Of a stretch of DNA of 64,000 bases, positions 643-7,455 are shown piece after piece (positions within the stretch are counted from its first letter, which is position 1; the number at the start of each line of letters is the position of its first letter). The translations under genes were made by a program, and so were the position numbers. The notes below the pieces were generated by a model, which searched no databases, was not told where the DNA came from, and saw nothing but the letters and a program-made list of their open reading frames with translations. The DNA is from Limimonas halophila (GTDB lineage: Bacteria; Pseudomonadota; Alphaproteobacteria; Kiloniellales; Rhodovibrionaceae): contig NZ_FNCE01000002.1 of NCBI RefSeq assembly GCF_900100655.1, positions 186,001 to 250,000 on the forward strand, in the 5' to 3' direction.

Positions 643-1080
643 ATGTTCATCAGCCCGGCGTACGCCCAGGCGGCAGGCGGGGGGCAAGGCGGCTTCGACA
701 TCATGGCCCTCTTGCCCCTGATCCTGATCTTTATCGTCTTCTACTTCCTGCTCATCCGCCCGCAGCAGAAGCGGATGAAGGAACACCGCCAGATGGTCGA
801 GAACCTGCGCCGCGGCGACCGCGTCGTCACCGGCGGCGGCATCGTCGGCCAAGTGACCAAGATCGTCAGCGACACCGAGGCTCAGGTCGAGATCGCCGAG
901 GGCGTTCGCGTGCGCGTTGTGAAGAGCAACGTCCAGCAGGTGCTCTCCAAGAGCCAGCCCGCCGAAGGCGAGCAGGGTGGCGGCGGCGACAAGCAGGCCG
1001 CCAACGATGCCGGCGACACGGGCAAGGGCGTTATGAGCAAGCTCCTCGGCGGCGGCCGCGGCGACGACAAATCCAGCTAG
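643..1080 (+). CDS. yajC: Preprotein translocase subunit YajC
   Basis: The 145-residue protein has the YajC layout: a short periplasmic N-terminus, one transmembrane helix at about residues 24-43 (LLPLILIFIVFYFLLI), the basic RPQQKRMKEH segment just after it, and a cytoplasmic domain with RGDRVVTGGGIVG. YajC joins SecD and SecF in the accessory complex that helps SecYEG draw proteins across the inner membrane. The C-terminus, about residues 105-145, is a Gly/Asp/Lys-rich tail that makes it somewhat longer than the E. coli protein. It is the first gene of a yajC-secD-secF operon, 57 bp ahead of secD. The ATG at 643 follows GAGGATCC, a usable ribosome binding site. Confidence 0.96.
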   Translation: MFISPAYAQAAGGGQGGFDIMALLPLILIFIVFYFLLIRPQQKRMKEHRQMVENLRRGDRVVTGGGIVGQVTKIVSDTEAQVEIAEGVRVRVVKSNVQQVLSKSQPAEGEQGGGGDKQAANDAGDTGKGVMSKLLGGGRGDDKSS

Positions 1081-1137: not shown

Positions 1138-2703
1138 ATGCTGCACATTCCCCGCTGGCAAACGGTGGTCATCGCCCTGGTGGTGCTTGCCGGGGCGCTG
1201 TTCGCCGCGCCCAACCTCGTCAGCGAAAAGCGCGCCCAGCAGCTCCCCGACTGGCTGCCGCACAAGCAGATCAACCTGGGCCTTGACCTTCAGGGCGGTT
1301 CGCACCTGCTGCTGGAGGTGAAGGCCAAGGAGTCGCTGGAACAGTACCTCCAGGGCGTCGTGGAAGAGGTGCGCCGCAGCCTGCGCCAGGAGCGCATCGG
1401 GTACCGCGCGCTCGGCGTCAGCGACGGCGCCGTGTCCTTCGAGCTGCGCGATCCCGGCAAGGCCGGGGCCGCGCGCGAGGCGCTGCAGGACATCGGCGAT
1501 TCCCTGCGCCTGCAGCTCGAGGACGGCCAGGGCACGCTGGAGCTGACGGAGACCGCGCGCCGTGAACGCGTGAGCTCGACCGTCCAGCAGTCCATCGAGG
1601 TCATCCGGCGCCGCATCGACCAGACAGGCGTGCGCGAGCCCACGATCCAGCGTCAGGGCGAGCAGCGCATCATCGTGCAGTTGCCCGGGATCAACGATCC
1701 CGAGCGCATGAAGGACATCCTGGGTAAGACGGCGAAGCTGACGTTCCACCTGGTCCGCCAGGACATCAGCCCGAACGCCCAGGATATTCCGCCCAGCGTG
1801 CGGGTGCTGCCCTCGTCGGAAACCGGGCCGAACGACCAGCCCGTCCGCCGCTACGTGGTGGAAAAGCGGGCGATGGTCTCGGGTGAGAACCTGACCGACG
1901 CCCAGCCGAGCTTCCAGCAGGGTCAGCCCGTCGTCTCCTTCAGCTTCAACGCGGTCGGCGGCCGTCGCTTCGCCGAAGCGACGAAGGAGAATGTCGGCGA
2001 ACCCTTCGCCATCGTGCTGGACGAAAAGGTGATCTCCGCGCCGGTCATCCGCGAGCCGATCCTGGGCGGACAGGGCGTGATCTCCGGCGATTTCACCACA
2101 CAGGAAGCCCGCGACCTGGCGCTGCTGCTTCGTGCGGGCGCGCTGCCGGCGCCGTTGCGCATCCTGCAGGAGCGCACGGTCGGCCCGAGCATGGGCGCCG
2201 ATTCCGTGCAGGCGGGCAAAATCGCCAGCGTGGTCGCCCTGGTGGCGGTGATGGCCTTCATGGCAGCTATCTACGGCTTTTTCGGCACGCTGACCTGCAT
2301 CGGGCTGCTGGTGAACCTGATGCTGATCATGGGGGCGCTCTCGCTGTTACAGGCGACGCTGACGCTCCCCGGTATCGCGGGGATCGTGCTCACGCTGGGC
2401 ATGGCGGTGGACGCGAACGTGCTGATCTTCGAGCGCATCCGCGAGGAAGCGCGCAACTACCGCGGCCCGGTGTCCGCCATCGACGCGGGCTATCGCCGCG
2501 CCATGACCACGATCCTGGATGCCAACATCACCACGCTGATCGCCGCGCTGCTGCTGTACTACTTCGGCTCGGGGCCGGTCCGGGGCTTCGCCGTGACGCT
2601 GTCCATCGGCGTCGTCACCTCGATGTTCACGGCCATCATGCTGACCCGGTCCATGGTCGCGTTCTGGCTGCGGCGCCGGCGTCCGCAGGCGCTGCCAATC
2701 TGA
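1138..2703 (+). CDS. secD: Protein translocase subunit SecD
   Basis: A 521-residue RND-type membrane protein. An N-terminal helix at about residues 8-25 is followed by the SecD signature GLDLQGGSHLLLEV at about 48-61. A large periplasmic P1 region comes next, then a C-terminal bundle of five helices that includes GMAVDANVLIFERIREE. With SecF and YajC it uses the proton gradient to help release translocated proteins on the periplasmic side. Length is that of short proteobacterial SecD proteins. It lies between yajC and secF, 19 bp before secF, consistent with one operon. Nothing is missing from the conserved motifs. Confidence 0.97.
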   Translation: MLHIPRWQTVVIALVVLAGALFAAPNLVSEKRAQQLPDWLPHKQINLGLDLQGGSHLLLEVKAKESLEQYLQGVVEEVRRSLRQERIGYRALGVSDGAVSFELRDPGKAGAAREALQDIGDSLRLQLEDGQGTLELTETARRERVSSTVQQSIEVIRRRIDQTGVREPTIQRQGEQRIIVQLPGINDPERMKDILGKTAKLTFHLVRQDISPNAQDIPPSVRVLPSSETGPNDQPVRRYVVEKRAMVSGENLTDAQPSFQQGQPVVSFSFNAVGGRRFAEATKENVGEPFAIVLDEKVISAPVIREPILGGQGVISGDFTTQEARDLALLLRAGALPAPLRILQERTVGPSMGADSVQAGKIASVVALVAVMAFMAAIYGFFGTLTCIGLLVNLMLIMGALSLLQATLTLPGIAGIVLTLGMAVDANVLIFERIREEARNYRGPVSAIDAGYRRAMTTILDANITTLIAALLLYYFGSGPVRGFAVTLSIGVVTSMFTAIMLTRSMVAFWLRRRRPQALPI

Positions 2704-2722: not shown

Positions 2723-3682
2723 ATGGCGCTGATCCGCAACGTTCCGGTCGCCCCGTCGCTGAACTTCGTGAGCCTGCGGCGCCTGACCCTGGCGCTCGCC
2801 GCGGCGCTCATCGTCGTCTCCGCCATCGCCTTCGGGGCGTTCGGCCTCAACCTCGGCGTGGACTTCCGCGGCGGCATCGTCATCCAGGCGCAGACGACGC
2901 CGGAAACGACCTTGGCCGGCATGCGCGACAGCCTGGCCGAACTCGACCTGGGCGACACCAACATTCAGCGCTTCGGTGAGGCGCACACCGTCCTGATCCG
3001 CATCCAGGAGCAGGCCGGCGGGGAAGAAGCCCAGAACGCCGCCATCGAACGAGTTAAAGAGCATCTCCAGCCCCAGGTCACGAGCTACGAGCGCACCGAG
3101 TTCGTCGGCCCCCAGGTGGGCGAAGAGCTGAAGCAGGCCGGCATGATGGCCACGGGGCTGGCGCTGCTGGCGATGGCGGCCTACATCTGGTTCCGCTTCG
3201 AGTGGCAGTTCGCCGTGGCGGGGCTGGCCGCGCTGATCCACGACGTGGTCACGACGATCGGCTTCTTCTCGATCACGCAGCTGCAGTTCAATCTGGGTAC
3301 CGTGGCGGCGGTGCTGACGATCGCCGGGTATTCGATCAATGACACCGTCGTGGTCTTCGACCGCGTGCGCGAGACGGTGCGCCGCTACAAGCGCAAGCCC
3401 ATGCCCGAGCTGCTCAACATCGCGGTGAACAGCACGGTCACGCGCACGGTGCTGACCTCCACCACCACGCTGGTCGCGCTGATCGCGCTGGCGATCTTCG
3501 GCGGTGCGGTGATCCGAAGCTTCACCTGGGCGCTGATCTGGGGCGTGCTGATCGGGACCTTCTCCTCCATCGGGGTGGCGGTGCCGCTGCTGTTGCAGAT
3601 GCGGCTGTCCCCGAGCACGCTCGTGCAGGAGGAGGACGAGACGGCCAAGCAACAGGCGAAGGCCGCCGGCAGCTCCTCGTAA
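2723..3682 (+). CDS. secF: Protein translocase subunit SecF
   Basis: A 319-residue partner of SecD. It shows the SecF hallmarks: an N-terminal transmembrane helix at about residues 20-42, GVDFRGGIVI immediately after it, and the D4-type motif INDTVVVFDRVRE at about 205-217 in the C-terminal helix bundle. The ATG at 2723 follows GAGAGGAACCGCA, a good ribosome binding site. It sits in the inner membrane as SecDF. The next gene (Mth938 domain) starts 40 bp downstream on the same strand and may be co-transcribed. Confidence 0.97.
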   Translation: MALIRNVPVAPSLNFVSLRRLTLALAAALIVVSAIAFGAFGLNLGVDFRGGIVIQAQTTPETTLAGMRDSLAELDLGDTNIQRFGEAHTVLIRIQEQAGGEEAQNAAIERVKEHLQPQVTSYERTEFVGPQVGEELKQAGMMATGLALLAMAAYIWFRFEWQFAVAGLAALIHDVVTTIGFFSITQLQFNLGTVAAVLTIAGYSINDTVVVFDRVRETVRRYKRKPMPELLNIAVNSTVTRTVLTSTTTLVALIALAIFGGAVIRSFTWALIWGVLIGTFSSIGVAVPLLLQMRLSPSTLVQEEDETAKQQAKAAGSSS

Positions 3683-3722: not shown

Positions 3723-4097
3723 ATGGACGTGACGCCCTACGTGCCGGAGGGCCGGCAGATCATCGAGGGCTACGGCGACCGCCGCTTCCGCGTGGGCGGC
3801 GAGGTCTACGAGGGTTCCGTCATCGTTTTTCCGGAGCAGACGGTGGCGTGGCCGGTCACGGCCTTCGAGGAGATGACGCTGGAGCAGTTGCAGCCCGTCC
3901 GCGAGGCCGCCGGGAGCGTCGACCTGTTGCTGATCGGCTGCGGGGAGCGCACGGAACTGGTTACGCGCAAGCTGTACGAGCCCTTGCGGGCCGAGGGCAT
4001 CGTCATCGAGGCCATGGCGACGGGCCCGGCGTGCCGAACCTATAACGTGCTGCTGGCGGAAGAGCGCAAGGTCGCCGCGGCGCTGATCGCCGTGTAA
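3723..4097 (+). CDS. Mth938-domain protein (NDUFAF3-like)
   Basis: A 124-residue single-domain protein of the Mth938/DUF498 family, the bacterial relatives of the human complex I assembly factor NDUFAF3. Family features include the N-terminal PYVPEGRQIIEGYG strand region, the core VDLLLIGCGERTEL, and the C-terminal MATGPACRTYNVLLAEERKVAAALI. GAGAGGGGACAGC precedes the ATG at 3723. It follows secF in the same orientation, a placement widespread in alphaproteobacteria. The role in bacteria is not established. A part in complex I assembly or in membrane-protein insertion with SecDF is inference from the eukaryotic homologue and the neighbourhood. Confidence 0.88.
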   Translation: MDVTPYVPEGRQIIEGYGDRRFRVGGEVYEGSVIVFPEQTVAWPVTAFEEMTLEQLQPVREAAGSVDLLLIGCGERTELVTRKLYEPLRAEGIVIEAMATGPACRTYNVLLAEERKVAAALIAV

Positions 4098-4146
4098 ACC
4101 GGGCACACTGCCAGGGCGCGGCATCGTTGCGAAACAACAGTCCCGC

Positions 4147-4178
4147 AAAGAAAACGGGGCGGCCCATGGGCCGCCCCG
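4147..4178 (-). terminator. Rho-independent terminator of sodB
   Basis: A perfect GC-rich palindrome at 4155-4178 (11-bp arms, 2-nt centre) is followed on the minus strand by TTTTCTTT. It begins just past the sodB stop codon, which is the expected layout for an intrinsic terminator. The plus-strand side lacks a T run, so it should act only on sodB. Confidence 0.8.
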
Positions 4179-4190
4179 CCTGGGAACCGC

Positions 4191-4799
4191 TCAGCCCTGC
4201 ATCCGGCTGGCCACGTACTCCCAGTCGACCAGATGGTCGATGAAGGCGCGCACGTAGTCCGGACGGCGGTTGCGGTAGTCCAGGTAGTAGCTGTGCTCCC
4301 AGACGTCGCAGCCGAGCAGGGCGTGCTGGCCGTCGAAGCACAGCGGGTTCACGCCGTTGGGCGTGGAGGTGATGCGGAGCTGGCCGTGCTCCTGGACCAG
4401 CCAGGCCCAGCCGCTGCCGAATTGCCCGGCGGCGGTGGTCACGAAGGTCTCGCGGAACTGCTCCCAGCTGCCGAAGGCGCCCTCGATGGCCTGCTTCAAC
4501 TCGCCCGGCACGCCCAGGTTCTCGGCGCCGCCATTCTGACGCATGCACGGCCAGAACAGCGTGTGGTTCCAGTGCTGCGAGGCCATGTTGAAGATCTTGG
4601 CACGGTTGCTGTCGGTGTAGGTCTGGCGGACAATATCCTCCAGCTCGGCGTTCTCCAGGTCCGTGCCCTCGATGAGGCTGTTCAGCGTCGTGACGTAACC
4701 GTTGTGGTGCTTATCGTGGTGGAACTGCAGCGTCTCGGCCGACATGTACGGCTCAAGCGCGTCGTAGTGGTACGGCAGGTCGGGAAGCGCGAAGGCCAT
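4191..4799 (-). CDS. sodB: Superoxide dismutase (Fe type)
   Basis: A 202-residue Fe/Mn-family superoxide dismutase that converts superoxide to oxygen and hydrogen peroxide in the cytoplasm. The metal ligands are in place: His27 in the FHHDKHH helix, His79 in WNHTLFW, and Asp165 and His169 in GCDVWEHSYYLDY. Gln75 just before WNH and the FGSGWAWLV segment are Fe-type features, so iron is the likelier metal. AAGGAGGGC precedes the ATG at 4799. It is monocistronic, with a candidate promoter at 4873-4900 and a strong terminator behind it. It lies between two genes that are adjacent in many relatives, on the opposite strand, so it may be a local insertion. Confidence 0.96.
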   Translation of the reverse strand: MAFALPDLPYHYDALEPYMSAETLQFHHDKHHNGYVTTLNSLIEGTDLENAELEDIVRQTYTDSNRAKIFNMASQHWNHTLFWPCMRQNGGAENLGVPGELKQAIEGAFGSWEQFRETFVTTAAGQFGSGWAWLVQEHGQLRITSTPNGVNPLCFDGQHALLGCDVWEHSYYLDYRNRRPDYVRAFIDHLVDWEYVASRMQG

Positions 4800-4872
4800 G
4801 GCGATGCCCTCCTTCTTGGTGTTTCACACGCGTTCCGGTGTCCGCTCGGCTGTTGTGACAGCAGCCACCCCC

Positions 4873-4900
4873 AAAATAGGCAGTCATGGGCGGCTGTTAA
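4873..4900 (-). promoter_or_regulatory. Candidate sodB promoter
   Basis: On the minus strand, TTAACA (4900-4895) and TATTTT (4878-4873) are 16 bp apart and lie about 75 bp upstream of the sodB start. No Fur- or Irr-type box was recognised around it. Identified by inspection only. Confidence 0.35.
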
Positions 4901-5065
4901 CCGGGGGGCACCATCCTCTGCTGTGGACAATTCGAAAGATCGATCGCGGGTGCAGGCCGTTCCAAGGGGCGTTTCTCCCAGGTGAAGCGAGCCCGGCGCC
5001 GACCCCCCTGAAACTGCGGCGCACGGGTTCACGCCCGGCCATCCCGACGCCATATACGGGTCGCC

Positions 5066-5920
5066 ATGACCGCCAGTTCCGATCCCCGCCTGTCGTATTG
5101 CGGCGAGCAGGTCCGCCGCTTCGACCACGACCGCTACCTCACCTGCCTCTTCGCGCCGGCGGCCGCGCGCGAGGATCTGTTCGCGCTCTACGCCTTCAAC
5201 CACGAGATCGCCAAGGTGGCGGAGATCGTCACCGAGCCCATGGCCGGACAGATCCGCATCCAGTGGTGGCGCGAGGGGCTGGACGACCTCTACGCGGGCG
5301 AGCCGCGGAAACACGAGGTCGCCGAAGCGCTGGCCGGCGCGGTGCAGCGCCACGGCCTGACGCGCCAAGCCTTCGAGCGGCTGCTGGACGCGCGCGAAAC
5401 CGACCTGGACGACGATCCGCCGGAAACCCTGGACCACCTGACGCGCTACGCCGAGGAAACCTCCGCCACGCTCGTGCAGCTCGCGCTTGAGGTGCTGGGC
5501 GCGCACGACGACGCCAGCATGCGCGCGGGCCGGCACGTGGGCGTGGCCTGGGCGCTGACGGGGATCGCGCGCGCGGTGCCCTTCCACGCCGCACAGCGCC
5601 GCCTGATGCTGCCGGGGAACCTGACGTGGCAGGCCGGGCTGGACGTCCACGACCTCTTCGAGCTGCGCGAGCCGGCGGAAGTGCAGCCGGTCGTGCGCCA
5701 AGTGACCGAGCGGGCCGAAGATCACCTGCGCGAAGCGGAAGCCCTGCGCCGCCGCGTGCCGCGCGACGCGGTGCCGGCGCTGCTCCCGGCGACGCTGGCG
5801 CGGCGCTACCTGGCGCTGCTCAAGCGCCACGAGCACGATCCCTTCGCCCCCGAGGTCCAGCGCCCGCAGCCGGGCCGGCCCATGCGCCTCGCCTGGGCCG
5901 CGGCGCGCGGCCGGTTCTGA
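5066..5920 (+). CDS. Squalene/phytoene synthase-family protein (NDUFAF6-like)
   Basis: A 284-residue all-helical protein of the squalene/phytoene synthase superfamily. The family segment LFALYAFNHEIAKV lies at about residues 38-51 and QIRIQWWREGLDDLY at about 62-76. The first aspartate-rich motif of true synthases, which binds Mg-diphosphate, is replaced by NHEIAK, so catalysis of prenyl condensation is unlikely. This pattern fits the bacterial relatives of the human complex I assembly factor NDUFAF6. No carotenoid or hopanoid genes are nearby. It follows the NDUFAF3-like gene except for the intervening sodB. A complex I-related role is inferred; a divergent synthase is the alternative. Confidence 0.8.
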   Translation: MTASSDPRLSYCGEQVRRFDHDRYLTCLFAPAAAREDLFALYAFNHEIAKVAEIVTEPMAGQIRIQWWREGLDDLYAGEPRKHEVAEALAGAVQRHGLTRQAFERLLDARETDLDDDPPETLDHLTRYAEETSATLVQLALEVLGAHDDASMRAGRHVGVAWALTGIARAVPFHAAQRRLMLPGNLTWQAGLDVHDLFELREPAEVQPVVRQVTERAEDHLREAEALRRRVPRDAVPALLPATLARRYLALLKRHEHDPFAPEVQRPQPGRPMRLAWAAARGRF

Positions 5921-5926
5921 CCCGGA

Positions 5927-7291
5927 TCAGGCCGCCGCTTCGGGCGTCGGCTCTGTGTTCAGCCAGGCATCGATGTCGCGCAGGGCGCGGGCGGACTGAG
6001 CTGGTTTGCGCTCCTTGCGCTTCACCGGCTTGCCGTTGTCCTGCTTGATCGGCGGCAACAGCCCGAAGTTGATGTTCATGGGCTGGAAGGTGTCGTCGCT
6101 CGCCCCGCCCGTGATGTGGTTGAGCAGCGCGCCCAGGGTCGTGGTGTCGGGCGGCGGCGCGACAGCTTCGCCGCGACGCTCCGACGCCGCGAAGCGGCCG
6201 GTGAGCAGGCCGATGGCGGCGCTCTCCACGTAGCCCTCGACGCCCGTGATCTGCCCCGCGAAGCGCAGGCGCGGGCAGGCCTTCAGCCGCAGCAAGCCGT
6301 CGAGCAGCTTGGGCGAGTTGATGAAGGTGTTGCGGTGCAGGCCGCCCAGGCGCGCGAACTCCGCGTTCTCCAGGCCCGGGATCATGCGGAAGACCTCGAC
6401 CTGCTGCTTCTTGCGGATCTTCGTCTGGAAACCGACCAGGTTGTAGAGCGTGCCCAGCGCGTTGTCCTGACGCAGCTGCACCACGGCATAGGGGCGTTCG
6501 CCCGTGCGCGGGTCCGTCAGCCCCACCGGCTTCATTGGCCCGAAGCGCAGGGTTTCGATGCCGCGCTCGGCCATGACCTCGGCGGGCAGGCAGCCCTCGA
6601 AGTAGGGCGTCTCGGTCTCCCAGGTCTTGAACTGGGTCTGCTCCGCTTCGAGCATCGCCGTGATGAAGGCTTCGTAAGTTTCCTGGTCCAGCGGGCAGTT
6701 GATGTAGTCCCCCGTGCCGCCGCCGGGACCCGGCTTGTCGTAGCGCGACTGGAACCAGGCGATGTCGAAGTTGATGCTGTCCTTGTAGACGATGGGCGCG
6801 ATGGCATCGAAGAAGGACAGATAGCCCTCACCGGTCAGGTCCTGGATCGCTTCGGTCAGGCCGGGCGAGGTGAGGGGGCCCGTCGCGACGATGACGTTGT
6901 CCCAGTCCTCGGGTGGCATGCCGTCCACGGCCTCGCGCCGCACCTCGATCAGCGGCTCGTGGTCGATGGCTTCGGTGATCGCGCCGGCGAAGCGGTGCCG
7001 GTCGACGGCCAGCGCGCCGCCCGCGGGCAGCTTGGCGTCGTCCGCCGCGGCCATAACGAGGCTGCCGCAGCGCCGCATCTCCTCGTGCAGCACGCCCACG
7101 GCGTTGTTCGTGGCATCGTCCGAGCGCAGCGAGTTGGAGCACACCAGCTCGGCGAGCTGATCCGTTTCGTGCGCGTTCGTCGTGTGCTCGGGACGCATTT
7201 CGTGCAGCACGACGGGAACGCCGCGCCGGGCGAGCTGCCACGCCGCTTCGCTGCCGGCCAGGCCGCCGCCGATGATGTGGACCGGGTTCAT
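5927..7291 (-). CDS. trmFO: Methylenetetrahydrofolate-tRNA-(uracil-5-)-methyltransferase TrmFO
   Basis: A flavoprotein of about 454 residues that makes ribothymidine at U54 in tRNA, using methylene-tetrahydrofolate as carbon donor and FAD/NAD(P)H as reductant. The N-terminus has the dinucleotide-binding motif [15 protein letters not shown], followed by the TrmFO signature [12 protein letters not shown], and the C-terminal part contains [17 protein letters not shown]. The ATG at 7291 is chosen because GAGG sits 8 nt upstream; an ATG two codons earlier (7297) and one farther upstream (7333) are less well placed. It lies downstream of uvrA on the same strand with about 165 bp between. The last 40 residues are a basic tail beyond the family core. 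Confidence 0.95.
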
Positions 7292-7455
7292 GCTCATGGC
7301 CTCGCAGATAGCCGTGCGCCCGGGGGCGAACAAGGAGCGATTCAGGGCGCGATGAAACGTCGAAGAACAATCCTACGAGCCTCATCGCCCCCGATGGCAT
7401 TCGTGTGCGGGCATGACTTAGAGCCCGGATTGATGCAGCCCTACCTCATCATGCC

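Follow-up and report, generated by a model that had tools for sequence, protein, structure and literature searches.

We analysed a 64,000-nucleotide stretch of the Limimonas halophila genome (contig NZ_FNCE01000002.1, positions 186,001 to 250,000; the whole stretch is called the window below), in which two genes beside secDF had been taken for homologues of complex I assembly factors on the basis of the DNA letters (the sequence-only reading). The first gene, at 3723..4097 on the plus strand, encodes a DUF498/Mth938-like protein of 124 amino acids that belongs to the superfamily of NDUFAF3 (PF04430, E 1e-33, 116 bits against a cut-off of 33). It starts 40 nucleotides after the stop of secF, which it directly follows as that reading had said. 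The next plus-strand gene, at 5066..5920, encodes a protein of 284 amino acids with the SQS_PSY fold (PF00494, E 7e-63), which is NDUFAF6-like and is called AF6 here. A gene for an Fe/Mn superoxide dismutase (PF02777 and PF00081) lies between the two on the minus strand (4191..4799), therefore the pair does not form one operon in this window.

Upstream on the plus strand are yajC, coding the translocase accessory subunit (643..1080; PF02699, E 2e-30; TIGR00739, 96 bits against a cut-off of 44), secD (1138..2703; TIGR01129, 491 bits against 244), and secF (2723..3682; TIGR00966, 308 bits against 160). Downstream of AF6, trmFO is on the minus strand (5927..7297; NF003739, 674 bits against 262) and was taken as functionally unrelated. 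Beyond it, uvrA, called from its translation, is also on the minus strand. The assembly of 3.04 Mb has nuoD on the same contig as the window, and contains five SQS_PSY matches including AF6.

Catalytic motifs and fold of the two proteins

The sequence-only reading had stated that AF6 lost the first Asp-rich motif of squalene/phytoene synthases. The alignment confirmed this loss, with AKVAE at the first DxxxD site (residues 49-53, 5210..5224), but the loss was not confined to the first motif, because the second site (residues 170-174, 5573..5587) now reads AVPFH. When AF6 of the window was aligned with 38 of 39 related loci (L040 was left out for its broken frame), none of the 39 sequences had DxxxD at either site. 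The first site was AxxxE in 34 sequences and AxxxD in one, and the second was A/S/TxxxH in 22 and different in the other 17.

HpnD, HpnC, and CrtB are characterized by two DxxxD motifs (DDxxD and RDxxED), which AF6 does not have. It shares the Pfam family and the fold with HpnD and HpnC, but its scores were below the equivalog cut-offs: 140.6 bits against 278.6 for HpnD, the best NCBIfam model, and 82.3 bits against 250.45 for HpnC. Since DxxxD was absent from both sites in all sequences and both models scored far below their cut-offs, prenyl synthase activity is very unlikely as judged from sequence, in agreement with the doubt raised in the sequence-only reading.

The predicted structure of AF6 was confident (predicted local distance difference test, pLDDT, 94.5) and had an SQS/CrtM-type fold, with Foldseek template modelling (TM) scores, normalized by the query, of 0.83 to a CrtM-like structure and 0.76 to an HpnC structure. 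Retention of this fold could mean that AF6 remains a prenyl or lipid enzyme whose chemistry has changed. We consider this highly improbable, as both Mg-binding motifs are missing from 39 of 39 sequences while the same genome has paralogues bearing such motifs. Besides AF6, the genome has four SQS_PSY matches. Three of them were read, and within the stretch covered by the alignment one had both motifs and two had the second only.

AF6 has invariant residues of its own. H83, R110, G166, and R169 were invariant in 25 sequences and lie outside the patterns used for scanning. The FALYAFNH and QWW stretches were themselves scan patterns, so their conservation is partly selected, whereas AxxxE and AxxxH are outside the patterns. 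Because AF6 combines its own invariant residues with a confidently predicted fold, it looks like a retained and repurposed fold rather than a decaying gene.

AF6 resembles mitochondrial NDUFAF6 (C8orf38) at the same sites. In the available part of PMC12470011, AxxxD and AxxxH/SxxxH replace the DxxxD motifs of human and Arabidopsis NDUFAF6, and AKVAE and AVPFH of the window fit this AxxxD/E and A/SxxxH pattern, not that of Drosophila. AF6 and NDUFAF6 share the SQS_PSY fold, the loss of both DxxxD motifs, alanine at the start of the first site, and often histidine at the end of the second. An excerpt of PMC8007014 describes NDUFAF6 and its orthologues as lacking both motifs, and places prokaryotic proteins in the NDU1-orthologue cluster. 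While NDUFAF6 is mitochondrial, AF6 is bacterial and found in a yajC-secDF neighbourhood, and its role in complex I is putative.

The DUF498 protein was also predicted with confidence (pLDDT 91), and its model had the Mth938-like fold of 2FI9 (TM 0.87), 3CPK, 2FVT, and 1IHN. The nearest solved human protein was not NDUFAF3 but C11orf67/AAMDC (2AB1), and the PDB sequence matches included no chain named NDUFAF3 or NDUFAF6. The window protein shares superfamily and fold (PF04430) with NDUFAF3 (C3orf60), a likeness at the superfamily level for which AAMDC is also a candidate. We take the link to NDUFAF3 from the sequence-only reading and from general knowledge, as an assignment to the superfamily only.

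In three related loci, the motif-less gene was directly adjoined by another SQS_PSY gene, one that has DD-rich motifs (L020:5584-6549, L022:8994-9959, and L024:8864-9955; the Pfam scan covered the genes in L020 and L022 and left out that in L024). These adjacent genes are perhaps a trace of tandem duplication.

Conservation of the gene neighbourhood

To describe the neighbourhood, 39 AF6 loci from named genomes were scanned with profiles; many of these loci are shortened by contig ends. The neighbours found were trmFO (29 loci), yajC (23), secD (21), superoxide dismutase (17), secF (14), and DUF498 (11), and uvrA was present in a number of the loci. In all 17 of its loci the dismutase stood upstream of AF6 and near it. 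DUF498 directly followed secF wherever both were found, except in L040 with its broken frames.

The arrangement was then tabulated in a class sample of 389 alphaproteobacterial genomes with completeness of at least 95%, in which AF6 was detected in 219 genomes (E 1e-30) and DUF498 in 233. Distances were taken from the best 150 listed places per gene among these positive genomes. Both places were listed in 113 genomes: they were within 20 kb in 96 (median 1.9 kb), far apart in three, and on different contigs in 14. Ninety-five of the 96 close pairs were on one strand with DUF498 upstream of AF6. By a rough estimate, random placement in a genome of about 4 Mb would give about one close pair. The proximity of DUF498 and AF6 exceeds chance, and the two genes in this order are a common alphaproteobacterial arrangement, so the pairing noticed in the window recurs across the class.

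Nine of the fetched genomes (G305, G188, G126, G196, G256, G060, G170, G209, and G141) had yajC-secD-secF-DUF498-AF6 with no dismutase intervening. Measured between match edges rather than start codons, the AF6 match of eight of them started between 10 nucleotides before and 32 nucleotides after the point where the DUF498 frame ends, and that of G141 started 121 nucleotides after this point. Three of these genomes, G126, G196, and G256, encoded SecD and SecF in one frame. Fusion of SecF with DUF498 was suspected from seven long frames (383-923 amino acids), but it was rejected because secF was in another frame in all seven.

The neighbourhood could also be frozen ancestral synteny, in which the pair may serve complex I while its position beside secDF has no functional meaning. 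The tRNA-methylation gene trmFO shows synteny with AF6 in 29 of 39 loci, therefore the neighbourhood alone proves little, and we know of no complex I role of trmFO or uvrA. The dismutase that splits the pair in the window, and a locus in which DUF498 comes right after yajC, neither secD nor secF having been found in between (L031:6492-7628), fit such synteny as well. It does not readily explain why order and strand of DUF498 and AF6 were kept in 95 of 96 close pairs, nearly abutting in several families, whereas trmFO was in the opposite orientation in 28 of its 29 loci. We regard frozen synteny as quite unlikely.

Among the literature matches listed, no paper described this cluster, and none was found with both NDUFAF3 and SecF. 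Earlier authors may have noted NDUFAF3 beside sec genes, and it is uncertain whether the cluster itself is new.

Distribution relative to complex I and a possible role in its assembly

The AF6 profile used for these counts was rebuilt after its first iterated version drew in HpnC and HpnD. In the related loci, the rebuilt profile scored clade members at 197 bits or more and paralogues at 117 or less, and the sole low clade score was a 133-bit piece at the broken-frame locus L040. This gap is not universal, with HpnD of other classes reaching 152 bits and diverged AF6 of the class falling to 132. The cut at E 1e-30 is soft: 14 of the 219 positives lay between 1e-30 and 1e-39, of which three were read (G048, G206, and G319) and found to be motif-less, and G116 and G304 were accepted by score within their family (f20, described below). 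When the 14 were dropped, AF6 was still tied to DUF498 (182 of 205). Absences are also soft, as families f12 and f48 have diverged matches near or below the cut. Outside the class, a search of 396 genomes of the phylum gave matches up to 155 bits; all 10 that were fetched and read kept DDxxD and RDxxED, were of HpnD type, and no match outside the class was counted as AF6.

NuoD (TIGR01962, E 0.001) was present in 351 genomes of the class sample and missing from 38. AF6 was found in 217 of the 351 NuoD-positive genomes versus 2 of the 38 NuoD-less ones, and DUF498 in 232 versus 1. Both genes were present in 189 of the NuoD-positive genomes, AF6 only in 28, DUF498 only in 43, and neither in 91. 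This tally covered NuoD, AF6, and DUF498, and the search for NuoH extended to 18 of the 38 NuoD-less genomes. The two exceptions were G290, which has AF6 only and was the one genome among the 18 with NuoH, at a contig edge, and G229, a 96% complete draft that has both genes and whose genus sister has NuoD. The other 36 NuoD-less genomes, of 16 family codes, had neither gene at these cuts. Frequent presence of the pair in genomes lacking complex I, which would have spoken against the sequence-only reading, was thus not observed.

The contrast was also tested within ranges of genome size, with kinship ignored. Among genomes of up to 2.0 Mb, either gene was present in 18 of 87 NuoD-positive versus 0 of 36 NuoD-less genomes (p 0.0015); taken singly, the counts among the 87 were 10 for AF6 (p 0.03) and 12 for DUF498 (p 0.02). 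Among genomes of 1.2-2.0 Mb, either gene was present in 18 of 78 versus 0 of 17 (p 0.036).

A contrast was observed within one family, f20, which is probably Acetobacteraceae. Its 160 genomes consisted of 13 without convincing NuoD, 13 with an E. coli-type NuoCD fusion as their best NuoD match, and 134 others. The AF6-type gene was absent from all 13 genomes of the first group and all 13 of the second, and 130 of the remaining 134 genomes had it. The first group was judged on NuoD alone, not on NuoH; 12 of its genomes had a very weak match (5e-12 to 5e-20), taken as not NuoD, and one had none. The NuoCD fusion was checked by sequence in 10 of 13 genomes, and by score and frame length in the other three. 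Fifteen of the 26 AF6-absent genomes were requeried, and their best matches scored 97 bits or less with HpnD/HpnC motifs of the DDxxD or QD type; the other 11 calls rest on E-values. Presence was called mostly by score, by reading in four weak cases (G389, G396, G441, and G542), and by match position and sister species in G248 and G510. Four AF6-positive genomes with weak NuoD (G406, G449, and G495, 1e-32 to 1e-38) or partial NuoD (G399, 4e-92) were taken as assembly breaks and counted among the 134.

A gyrB tree of 50 f20 genomes was made by a quick method, with 6 and 10 representatives of the no-NuoD and NuoCD groups and without G410 and G457, which had no full-length gyrB. These two groups formed one clade (for example L169-L178), and their relatives keep the alpha-type enzyme. 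We regard the contrast as suggestive support for a link between AF6 and complex I.

Several observations weigh against such a link. The contrast in f20 amounts to one event: the state of alpha-type complex I changes once on the gyrB tree. AF6 presence changes four times on this tree, and in three of these cases (G499; G445; G434 with G522) the alpha-type complex I is retained. These four genomes lack AF6 yet keep complex I, and the three changes are read as losses. Since the two groups form one clade and AF6 is lost where complex I is kept, the contrast counts as one event and AF6 as dispensable. In the class sample, 134 of the 351 NuoD-positive genomes lacked AF6, 119 lacked DUF498, and 91 lacked both at the thresholds used, and 22 of the 91 exceed 2.0 Mb. 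The 36 NuoD-less genomes without the pair are small (0.8-2.0 Mb), so gene loss confounds the comparison; among genomes of 1.2-2.0 Mb the single genes were not significant (AF6 10 of 78 versus 0 of 17, p 0.20; DUF498 12 of 78 versus 0 of 17, p 0.12), and at 1.4-2.0 Mb either gene gave 16 of 67 versus 0 of 12 (p 0.11). G229 carries the full gene cluster with neither NuoD nor NuoH found. In the control genome of E. coli, an organism with complex I, no match to DUF498 was obtained, and one was obtained in Methanosarcina acetivorans. AF6 was compared with NDUFAF6 by published motif letters, not by eukaryotic sequences, and the available part of PMC12470011 reports different replacement letters in Drosophila NDUFAF6 and complex I built without NDUFAF6 in some organisms.

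In f20, a broken remnant of AF6 was seen in G445 (L138 and L230; G445:C1:289912-290130), in which alpha-type NuoD is kept. The two genes need not occur together: the class sample includes six f20 genomes, five with AF6 and none with DUF498.

Because of the lost motifs, the recurring gene order, and the near-restriction, within the class sample, to genomes with NuoD, we favour the explanation that DUF498 and AF6 are probably the alphaproteobacterial counterparts of NDUFAF3 and NDUFAF6 acting in complex I assembly. The accessible part of PMC10910544 assigns NDUFAF3 to the quinone (Q) module and NDUFAF6 to the proximal membrane module, and that of PMC13071042, citing Sung 2024, ties NDUFAF6 to ND1 biogenesis and NDUFS8 incorporation. 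In the excerpt of PMC3436739, NDUFAF3, C8orf38, and C2orf56 evolve in step by rate co-evolution. DUF498 would keep the Q module (NuoB/C/D/I) in place at the membrane. AF6, as a dead prenyl-synthase fold with conserved residues of its own, might help to join NuoI and NuoH (human NDUFS8 and ND1) at the junction of the Q module and the membrane arm, so that the bacterial pair would dock the Q module on NuoH.

The sequence-only reading had gone further and suggested an ancestral module for complex I assembly beside SecDF. The conserved neighbourhood and the co-occurrence agree with the module, but the mechanistic link to SecDF found no support, with trmFO at least as syntenic (29 of 39 loci). Direct participation of SecDF-YajC is speculative; encoding behind yajC-secD-secF might couple synthesis of the pair to the machinery that inserts NuoH. 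If the pair were instead a general helper of the SecDF-YajC holotranslocon, complex I would be just one of many membrane-protein clients. The place of DUF498 directly after secF (L040 excepted) and the frequency of yajC and secD in AF6 loci (23 and 21 of 39) would suit such helpers, but hardly any NuoD-less genome of the class sample has either gene, and the f20 clade without alpha-type complex I lacks AF6 while keeping HpnD/HpnC-type paralogues (secDF was not searched there). General helpers of the translocon are unlikely in our view.

An extended version of the complex I assembly reading is tentative and rather doubtful as a whole. In it, yajC-secD-secF-DUF498-AF6 would be a dedicated, translocon-coupled line for alpha-type complex I, whose factors dock the Q module on nascent NuoH, with the dead pocket of AF6 holding an isoprenoid or lipid. 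The line would serve the alpha-type enzyme only and not be kept in the NuoCD/no-NuoD lineage, and mitochondria would have inherited the factors and lost SecDF.

In humans, NDUFAF3 and NDUFAF6 are disease genes of unclear mechanism. If the assembly role is true, the bacterial pair would open their function to simple gene deletion in culturable alphaproteobacteria, and the contrast between lineages with alpha-type and NuoCD-type enzymes is a natural experiment on the function of the NDUFAF6-like protein.

Other variation around the locus

A second, weaker DUF498 match of 48 bits was present in the genome of the window on a different contig (G000:C1:526803-527126, L002). In six loci (L030, L035, L034, L036, L041, and L047), no secF was found by profile between secD and AF6, and a protein of about 205 amino acids was encoded there. 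Two of these proteins were scanned (L030:9304-9918 and L035:1574-2197), and both matched Urate_ox_N (PF06181).

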